64,000 bases of DNA from Ustilago trichophora. Taxonomy: Eukaryota; Basidiomycota; Ustilaginomycetes; Ustilaginales; Ustilaginaceae. The DNA is taken from the NCBI GenBank assembly GCA_900323505.1, contig OOIN01000013.1:496001-560000 (forward strand), in the 5' to 3' direction. Both the position numbers and the translations under genes were made by a program. The notes beneath the pieces were generated by a model. It was not told the DNA's origin. It did no database searches and saw only the letters and a program-made list of their open reading frames with translations. Shown here piece by piece: positions 60,476 through 63,149 of this stretch (position 1 is its first letter; every line of letters starts with the position of its first letter).

Positions 60476-63149
60476 ATGAAGATCAAGCTTACTTCGTCGG
60501 CCCTTGTGCTGGCCTCCCTCTCTCTCGTCTACGCCGACAACGGCACCTGTGCCCCTCCCGCAGCTAACGCCACTCAGGCTGTTCCTGTCCCCCAGTCCTT
60601 CCCCGTCCCCACATACTCTCAGGCCCCGCTAGCCGGCTGCTACTGCACATGCACTTCGGGCTGGAACCCGACTGGTGGCGCTCCTTGGGGCTCCAGCGGT
60701 GGCTCTGGTGGTTCCGGCTGGGGTTCTGGCAGTGGCTCGGGCTCTGGCTCGGGTAGCGGCTCGGGTAACGGCGGTGGATCTGGCTCTGGCTCCGGTTCTG
60801 GTGGCAAGGGCAACGGCGGTGGATCCAACGGTGGCGGATCCGGCGGCTCCAACGGTGGTGGATCGAACGGCGGTGGATCTCACAATGGCGGCTCCAACGG
60901 TGGCGGCTCCAATGGTGGAGGCTCTAACGGTGGTGGCTCGCACGATGGTGGCTCGCACGATGGTGGATCCAACGGTGGCGGATCCAACGGTGGCGGATCC
61001 AACGGTGGCGGATCCAATGGCGGCGGTTCGAATGGTGGTGGCTCCAACGGAGGCGGTTCACACAACGGCGGCGGCTCCAATGGTGGCGGTTCCAACGGCG
61101 GTGGATCCAACGGTGGAGGCTCCAATGGAGGAGGTTCCAACGGTGGTGGATCTAACGGCGGCGGATCTAACGGCGGCGGCTCCAATGGTGGCGGCTCCAA
61201 TGGCGGAGGCTCCAATGGCGGAGGCTCCAATGGCGGAGGCTCCAATGGCGGAGGCTCCAATGGCGGAGGCTCTAACGGTGGTGGCTCCAACGGTGGAGGC
61301 AACAACGGCGGCGGCAACACTGGTGGAGGCAACGGTACCGGAAACGGTAACGGCAACTCTGGCATCGGTGACGGTATCGGCAACGGTAACGGCAACCTTG
61401 GCTCCAACAACGGAAACAACAATGGAAACAACAACTCTGGTCCCTTGATGGTTCCCTGAACGGAAACGGTAACCTCGGTTCCAACAATGGCAACAACAAC
61501 GGTAACAACAACTCCGGCAGCCTTGATGGAACTGGCAATGGTAACCTCAACGCCGGCTCGAACAACGGCAACAACAACGGCAACAACAACTCTGGTTCGC
61601 TCGATGGTTCGTTGAACGGTAATGGCAACCTTGGCAGCAACAACGGTAACAACAACGGCAACAACAACAGCGGCAGTGGTGATGGTACCGGCAACGGAAA
61701 CCTCAACCTCGGCAGCAACAACGGCAACAACAACGGCAACAACAACTCGGGTTCGCTCAACGGTTCCGGAGATGGCAACGCCAACCTTGGCTCGAACAAC
61801 GGTAACCAGAACGGAAACCAGAACTCGGGCAGCGGTAACGGCTCTCTCGACGGCAACCTCAACGCTGGCAGCAACAACGGAAACCAGAATGGTAACCAGA
61901 ACTCTGGCAGCGGCAATGGTATCGTCGATGGCAACGCCAACTTGGGCAGCAACAACGGTGACAAGAACGGCAACAACAACTCCGGCTCTCTCAACGGTGC
62001 TGTCGATGGCAATGGCAACCTTGGCTCCAACAACGGTAACCAGAATGGCAACAACAACCCTGGCTCGGCCAACGGTGTTGCCGACGGTAACCTGAACGGT
62101 GGCAGCAACAATGGCAACCAGAACGGTAACTCCAACACTGGCTCGCTCAACGGTGTCGCTGATGGCAATGCCAACCTTGGATCCGACAACGGCGACAAGA
62201 ACGGTAACAACAACGCTGGATCTGCCAACGGTGTCGCAGATGGAAATGCCAACCTTGGATCTGACAACGGAAACCAGAACGGTAACAACAACCCTGGATC
62301 GGCCAACGGTGTAGCTGACGGCAACCTCAACGCAGGCTCTGACAACGGCAACCAGAACGGTAACTCGAACACTGGCGCTCTCAACGGCGTTGCTGACGGT
62401 AACGCCAACCTTGGATCGACAACGGTGACAAGAACGGCAACAACAACTCTGGTTCGGCTAACGGTGTCGCTGATGGCAATGCCAACCTTGGATCTGACAA
62501 CGGTGACAAGAATGGCAACTCCAACTCTGGCTCTGCCAACGGTGTCGCTGATGGCAACCTCAACGCTGGCTCTGGTAACGGTAGCAACAACGGAAACACC
62601 AACAGCGGTGCCCTCAACGGTGTCGGTGATGGTAACGGCAACCTTGCCTCTGGTGCCGGTTCCAACAACGGTAACAACAACTCTGGATCTGGCAACGGTA
62701 TCCTCGATGGCAACCTCAACCTCGGTGGTGGCCAGATTGGATCCAACAACGGCAACGGCAACACTGGTTCTGGCAACGGCTCCGGTGCAGGCAACGGCAA
62801 CCTTTCGCTCGGTGACAACACTGTTGGCTCCAACAACGGTAACAACGGCTCTGGAACTGGTCAGGGCACCGGAAACGGCAACTTGAACCTCATCCTTGGT
62901 AGCGGTAACGACGTTGGATCCGACAACAAGGGCAGCGGTAACGGAAATGGAAACATCATCATTGGTAACAACCAGAACGTCGGATCGGGTCAGGATGGCA
63001 ACGGTCATGGTAACGGCAACATTATCGTCGGTACCGGTCTTGGAATTGACATTGGACCTCCCGGTGACAACTTCCACATCAAGTTGCGCCGTGCTCGCCC
63101 TCTCGGCGGCGGAAGGCTCTGGGGTAACACTGCCCAGGTCATCGTCTAA
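60476..63149 (+). CDS. Repetitive secreted Gly/Asn/Ser-rich protein
   Basis: No known family recognised. Seen: ATG 60476 with a clear signal peptide (KIKLTSSALVLASLSLVYA, cut before DNGTC); a short segment with four Cys (GTCAPP, AGCYCTCTSG); a Gly/Ser linker; a (GGGSN)n tract to about 61320 with a few His/Asp variants; 17 regular 26-residue units at 61385-62708, each two 13-residue halves of type GNxNxGSxNGxxx; looser units to about 63045; and a non-repetitive end (GDNFHIKLRRARPLGGGRLW, then GNTAQVIV) at TAA 63147-63149. About 890 residues. Two frame breaks, near 61442 and 62417, each equal one lost base. The regular spacing suggests a repeat fold such as a beta-solenoid, and a cell-wall or extracellular-matrix role. 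Both are inference. The acid side chains of later units (VAD, DNGDKN) could bind cations. Confidence 0.85.
60811..61320 (+). repeat. Coding 15-bp (GGGSN)n tandem repeat
   Basis: About 30 copies of a 15-bp unit coding Gly-Gly-Gly-Ser-Asn, with occasional Ser-His-Asn or Ser-His-Asp variants near 60875-60965 and 61065. Synonymous third-base changes (ggc, ggt, gga; tcc, tct, tcg) show that copies differ at silent sites while the protein stays constant. Confidence 0.85.
61385..62708 (+). repeat. Coding 78-bp tandem repeat, 17 units
   Basis: Seventeen 26-codon units. 17 x 78 = 1326 bp, while the stretch is 1324 bp, exactly two bases short, matching the two frame breaks. Each unit is two diverged 39-bp halves. 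Later units share the segment ANGVADGNANLGSDNG, so the right half of the array expanded more recently than the NNGNNNGNNN-rich left half. Confidence 0.9.

Follow-up and report, generated by a model that had tools for sequence, protein, structure and literature searches.

What is encoded by the Asn/Gly-rich repeat gene at positions 60476..63149 of this stretch of the Ustilago trichophora genome, and does it stand alone? An earlier note on the stretch (64,000 nucleotides of contig OOIN01000013.1, hereafter the window) had described an undescribed-looking secreted protein with a 13-residue period. Judging from the sequences compared in this study, the gene is one of a small fungal family encoding secreted repeat proteins that combine a signal peptide, a flexible linker, a 13-residue Asn/Gly rod, and a tail. 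Its product is predicted, with a probability of about 50%, to be a self-associating surface or matrix rod. It is not isolated, as four paralogues were detected in the same genome and relatives in fungi, bacteria, plants, and algae.

The window gene was analysed as three separate pieces, which are open in three different frames (piece 1, 60476-61456; piece 2, 61390-62883; piece 3, 62403-63146). The secreted-looking start proposed earlier was recovered as a segment that resembles a signal peptide by eye (MKIKLTSSALVLASLSLVYA), and the start described as Cys-rich contains four cysteines in the first 59 residues. Both the (GGGSN)n tract and the 17 units of 26 residues, each consisting of two 13-residue halves, were found as claimed (Table 1), and one extra half-unit is located beyond the main array at 62694. 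The tail, which had been called non-repetitive, is less regular up to its stop and starts with irregular repeats.

The half-units mainly alternate between NGNxNGNxNSGSx and NGxxDGNxNLGSx. Self-identity of the middle piece was 0.78 at lag 26 and 0.53 at lag 13, compared with a maximum of 0.29 at any lag from 4 to 31 in 100 shuffles. In six of the seven sequences formed by the pieces and the paralogues the best lag was 13 or 26, the exception being piece 1 with its GGGSN tract and a best lag of 5. We read the 13-residue period as a putative 5+4+4 pattern, NxGxx + NGxx + NGxx. Based on a pentad token ([ND]xGxx) and a tetrad token ([ND]Gxx), both defined after looking at the sequences, 329 gaps between pentads were counted in 48 sequences that include close relatives. 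Two tetrads, giving 13 residues, occupied 231 of these gaps, while 62 contained none (5 residues), 35 contained one (9 residues), and a single gap contained three. Token coverage was at least 3 standard deviations above that of shuffles in 43 of the 48 sequences and revealed a z below 3 in the other five; piece 1 reached a z of 6 in spite of lacking the 13-residue rhythm. The residue shuffles used for the lag, rhythm, and score tests wipe out all order and not the register alone. For 14 in-frame 26-residue units, the mean proportions of synonymous (pS) and nonsynonymous (pN) differences were 0.56 and 0.22 (pN/pS 0.39), with third codon positions being the most variable. This agrees with selection on the protein, which the earlier note had suggested from silent-site variation, but the units within one array cannot count as independent of each other, and codon usage is strongly biased.

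Protein searches of the source genome revealed the four paralogues as two pairs on contigs C33/C35 and C7/C6, all with uninterrupted frames, which were read within 10-kb stretches around the matches. The large pair, L014 (557 aa) and L015 (570 aa) on C33/C35, is 94% identical and carries a Ser/Thr-rich linker in place of GGGSN; its ratio of nonsynonymous to synonymous substitution rates (dN/dS) was 0.09. Compared with piece 3, the tails of L014 and L015 gave pairwise BLASTP E values of 4e-4 and 6e-4, including a C-terminal hydrophobic-basic motif. The small pair on C6/C7, L027 (163 aa; L027:5049-5537) and L026 (162 aa; L026:4543-5028), is 83% identical. A TAA seen in the C7 match belongs to the stop ending that frame, because the match extends past it. 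Asn was encoded by AAC in 75%, 92%, and 95% of cases in pieces 1, 2, and 3, in 78% and 84% in L014 and L015, and without exception (94 of 94) in the small pair; for comparison, six other frames of the window, with 10-23 Asn each, used AAC in 60-73%. The bias would fit high expression of some members. For the small pair, a dN/dS of about 1.1 at low pS, together with AAC alone for Asn, may reflect either codon selection or fast protein change.

In agreement with the earlier note, which knew of no matching family, Pfam revealed none for the three pieces and four paralogues apart from an AbrB-like chance match in piece 3 (E 0.32); at E <= 10, pieces 1 and 2 matched no family at all. NCBIfam gave for the same seven sequences only a sigma-factor chance match (E 0.47), and PDB sequences searched with four of the seven (pieces 2 and 3, L027, and L014) gave no match. 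A search of a large protein database with piece 3 led to no protein at E <= 0.001 among 7984 candidates scored. Of 7985 candidates scored with a profile of the small pair, 10 reached E <= 0.01, and of 7986 scored with a profile of the large pair, 19 did so. These 29 relatives include, by name, bacterial proteins from Mesorhizobium (two) and a Flavobacteriales metagenome-assembled genome, fungal proteins from Geosiphon pyriformis (two; P0006 and P0011), Mycena olivaceomarginata (P0007), and Microdochium bolleyi (P0009), and plant or algal proteins from Prunus mume, Salvia hispanica, and Coccomyxa (three). A further repeat-containing protein of 903 residues (P0018), recorded under Cichorium endivia, may be a contaminant.

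The best lag was 13 or 26 in 26 of the 29 relatives (exceptions P0013, P0023, and P0028), so that the spacing on which the earlier note had staked its proposal is conserved; the shared period is partly given by construction, because the relatives were found with period-13 profiles. More telling is that the repeat adjoins different partner regions in distant lineages. When scored with the L027/L026 profile, every one of the 29 relatives exceeded each of 40 shuffles made from its own repeat region, and 28 did so with the middle piece of the window (not P0019); the similarity depends on residue order, a result that, with residue shuffles, does not single out the 13-residue register. By eye, N-terminal segments among the relatives resemble signal peptides. 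The two plant proteins from Prunus mume and Salvia hispanica carry a precomputed Root_cap domain (PF06830); in these Root_cap proteins, P0015 and P0019, the 13-residue repeats follow an N-terminal hydrophobic segment. In P0009 from Microdochium the repeat is joined to a Cys-containing region (UniRef name 'Hydrophobin'; Hydrophobin_2 E 0.022, below the Pfam cut-off). In P0023, P0025, P0028, and P0029, coils recognised by eye as RTX-like are combined with the Asn/Gly repeat. Homology of the fungal Ile/Val tail to these coils was not supported: the best of the tail comparisons with the 29 relatives, L015 against P0028, gave E 0.013 and 25.8 bits, while the near-identical L014 tail gave E 0.55 and 580 shuffled proteins reached 25.0 bits. 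A plasmid search with P0001 gave no match at E <= 1e-5 with the BLAST low-complexity filter on.

Scanning of bacterial contigs resulted in at least 14 loci, nine in Mesorhizobium and one each in Paracoccaceae, Geminicoccus, Aureimonas, Methylobacterium, and Rhizobium. Asn/Gly frames were detected by pattern in 13 of the 14 listed loci (not in L039), each of the 13 harboring at least two on the same strand with rhythms of 13, 9, or 5 residues; L031 has one further frame. Neighbouring secreted-looking genes differ in their Asn/Gly rhythm in L029-L035, L037, L038, L040, and L041, and all nine listed Mesorhizobium loci have a frame whose C-terminus reads LGLPPGTIPDF followed by one to three more residues. 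Based on Pfam analysis of ten selected neighbouring frames from five loci, a LuxR-type (GerE) response regulator and a histidine kinase adjoin the repeat genes in three of the five (L029, L041, and L040). The spread is patchy: among 99 genomes from the genus to which G001 (the L031 genome) belongs, 29 had matches, as did 9 of 99 in the genus of G002 (the L040 genome) and 2 of 289 in the class of G001, each count including the centre genome.

Regarding the state of the window copy, the single protein assumed in the earlier note for 60476..63149 has no single open frame; a uninterrupted gene was rejected, as the frame is broken twice. Among 34 half-unit steps, 31 measure 39 nt, two 38 nt, and one, at the far end, 78 nt, and the frame switches coincide with both 38-nt steps. 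Introns at these sites were not favoured, because the half-units continue across both of them with a 38-nt step, leaving nothing to remove. The two 38-nt steps of the window copy are either genuine length changes of a single base each or errors of the assembly in the repeat. That the window copy is a decaying pseudogene in this strain, which concerns the state of the gene and is compatible with any reading of the protein, is less likely than not: the two frame changes, each at a 38-nt step, would fit, but there are just two such steps in the array, the repeat is kept, and the pieces contain no further stops. Single-base errors in repeats are, moreover, common in assemblies. The open frame on the opposite strand was rejected as a gene and is probably a by-product of the codons of the repeat. 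Rfam at gathering scores revealed nothing in the window or in the L014 stretch.

Table 1. Position of the window and features of the repeat gene (window coordinates unless a contig is given)
Feature	Position	Strand	Remarks
Window	C12:496001-560000		source genome of 38.8 Mb in 45 contigs
Putative signal peptide	60476..60535	+	ATG at 60476; 20 residues ending VYA; translation, judged by eye only
Short mature N-terminus, four cysteines	60536..60655	+	translation
(GGGSN)n linker tract	60842..61315	+	Tandem Repeats Finder: 15-nt period, 31.4 copies
Repeat array: 34 half-units of 13 residues in a row, giving 17 units of 26 residues	61331..62654	+	
First frame change	61409..61459	+	38-nt half-unit step from 61409 to 61447; stop of piece 1 at 61457-61459
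Second frame change	62383..62421	+	38-nt half-unit step
Irregular repeats, then Ile/Val-containing tail (GNGNxIIxG...), basic C-terminus	62655..63146	+	stop at 63147-63149
Open frame of 637 codons	61272..63185	-	

Both paralogue pairs lie in colinear duplicated segments on different contigs, with neighbours matched by eye, and these segments suggest a partly doubled or hybrid genome. As a counterpoint, two genes of the window, for Tyr-tRNA synthetase and for full-length threonine dehydratase, are present once each. Each of the four paralogues is some 35-63 kb away from the end of a contig, unlike the window copy (C12:556476-559149 of 910607).

In the proposed mechanism, the chain would be exported and its linker (GGGSN here, Ser/Thr-rich in L014 and L015) would space the rod from an anchor. 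With Asn side chains and Gly turns recurring at regular positions, the rods would then stack and associate with each other to form an extended material of the surface or matrix, much like the published proposal for the N-terminal Asn/Gly regions of hydrophobins from fungi. Such a rod, which we rank as the most likely mechanism, is suggested by the periodicity, the intact paralogues, the dN/dS of 0.09 for L014/L015, the occurrence of relatives in extracellular settings, the dependence of the similarity on residue order, and the AAC bias of some members; by analogy, the clustered bacterial relatives beside a regulator and a kinase, a setting like that of curli, may lend it further support. Several results weigh against it. 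One half of each 26-mer contains few hydrophobic residues, AlphaFold reached a mean pLDDT of 62.9 for the small paralogue and 46.4 for the window piece, and Foldseek with the small-paralogue model led to no match at E <= 0.001. In addition, dN/dS for L027/L026 was about 1.1 at a low pS (0.087), and neither regulator nor kinase was detected in the two neighbouring frames tested in each of L036 and L028. The absence of a family from the Foldseek and VIA-align listings excludes nothing. A beta-solenoid, as considered in the earlier note, is a candidate fold that the models neither establish nor contradict.

The next candidate in our ranking, less probable than the rod, is an intrinsically disordered, hydrated Asn/Gly brush or gel, whose register would stem from repeat duplication and a mild spacing constraint with no fold. 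The low AlphaFold confidence for the window piece points in this direction, as do passages in print, to the disadvantage of the rod, that describe a Gly/Ser/Asn-rich hydrophobin tail as disordered (PMC12375992) and Asn/Gly proteins of Glomeromycotina as intrinsically disordered proteins (IDPs; PMC8786786). However, distant lineages have the same rhythm in proteins whose partner regions are quite unlike each other, and the small paralogue was modelled with recurring strands at a pLDDT of about 72 over residues 91-140. For the roles as effector or in ice or cation binding, which the earlier note had listed, nothing specific was found. A plant-facing repetitive effector is improbable: the protein is secreted-looking and repetitive, and Ustilago is known to have repetitive secreted proteins with infection roles (PMC4617103, PMC5923269), but the repeat length is unlike the 31-55 residues given for Rep1 and Hum3 (PMC4617103), and the relatives extend to bacteria, plants, and algae. 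More improbable still would be a solenoid that binds ice or cations, as the units display no regular Thr or Asp ladder and the structure matches were weak, ranking below unrelated beta-helices. Insect antifreeze proteins have coils of 12 or 15 residues, so that their coil length is not shared with the period of 13 found here.

Among the known systems closest to the protein are the N-termini and spacers of class II hydrophobins (QID3, HCF6, CFTH1, and Vdh5), which are likewise secreted fungal Asn/Gly repeats. The period of 13 was seen in P0009 and the paralogues as well as in pieces 2 and 3. The window pieces lack a Pfam hydrophobin domain, and piece 1 has four cysteines in comparison to eight conserved ones. 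Passages of PMC2253510 report Asn/Gly repeats for the N-termini of certain Trichoderma hydrophobins and for QID3, HCF6, and Claviceps spacers, where cell-wall binding (cited for QID3) and Ure2p-like Asn side-chain stacking were proposed. Similar accounts concern the Asn/Gly-repeat Vdh5 of Verticillium (PMC9783231) and GN-rich stretches in CmQHYD of Cordyceps (PMC7827705), and many extended hydrophobin tails were predicted to be mainly disordered, some with low-confidence secondary structure, in parts of PMC12375992. The GN-rich IDPs of Ambisporaceae, Paraglomeraceae, and Geosiphon (GpRIC), judged in passages of PMC8786786 to be limited to Glomeromycotina, have Asn/Gly-rich tandem repeats in common with our family, and the best lag of P0006 and P0011 from Geosiphon is 13. 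According to these passages GpRICs carry KR (Kex2-like) motifs, as do P0006 and P0011, while pieces 1-3 revealed no KR by eye and one LRR near the C-terminus. BLASTN is reported there to have found nothing significant in Basidiomycota or Ascomycota, whereas our protein profiles detected the relatives from Mycena (P0007) and Microdochium (P0009). The plant Root_cap proteins P0015 and P0019 share the 13-residue repeats, but PF06830 is absent from the window pieces. PMC10796529, on Root_cap proteins, cites Matsuyama 1999; by its title, that paper locates a glycine-rich protein of the maize root cap in mucilage.

Pfam pentapeptide models gave no match for the seven window and paralogue sequences or for ten further ones. 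Mycobacterial PPE-MPTR proteins are built from NxGxx pentapeptide repeats with a period of 5. This pentad also occurs in direct runs among the relatives (the 62 of 329 gaps without a tetrad), but here two tetrads usually follow each pentad. As in curli systems, repeat genes that look secreted are clustered next to a LuxR-type regulator in some bacterial relatives; the repeats differ from those of curli in length and in residues, and no Pfam curli match was obtained for the sequences tested. A 13-residue Asn/Gly repeat was not recognised in the titles and abstract beginnings of the papers listed by literature searches, which covered few subscription papers and had bioRxiv outside their scope. 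The label "undescribed" in the earlier note can hold solely for the 13-residue rhythm and its spread, and there perhaps, because similar Asn/Gly repeats have already been published, both in hydrophobin N-termini and in proteins of Geosiphon and other Glomeromycotina.

Altogether, the protein appears as a member of a known, loose kind of secreted Asn/Gly repeat proteins, to which it adds a precise 13-residue rhythm across several kingdoms. In the passages available from the cited papers, fungal surface Asn/Gly repeats have so far been treated group by group, as disorder or possible amyloid, while a common 5+4+4 rhythm in fungi, bacteria, plants, and algae would be one testable sequence rule. 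It qualifies the BLASTN-based conclusion, stated in passages of PMC8786786, of a restriction to Glomeromycotina among the fungi searched. Short intact members, with 163 residues in this genome and some 140 in Mesorhizobium, lend themselves to production and imaging. Tentatively, and at somewhat less than even odds, one 13-residue module (NxGxx + NGxx + NGxx, with 5- and 9-residue variants) may serve as extracellular building material across kingdoms. Fungi, rhizobia, the root-cap proteins of plants, and green algae would then share a single physical solution, the Asn-ladder rod, at which they arrived via convergence or horizontal transfer.
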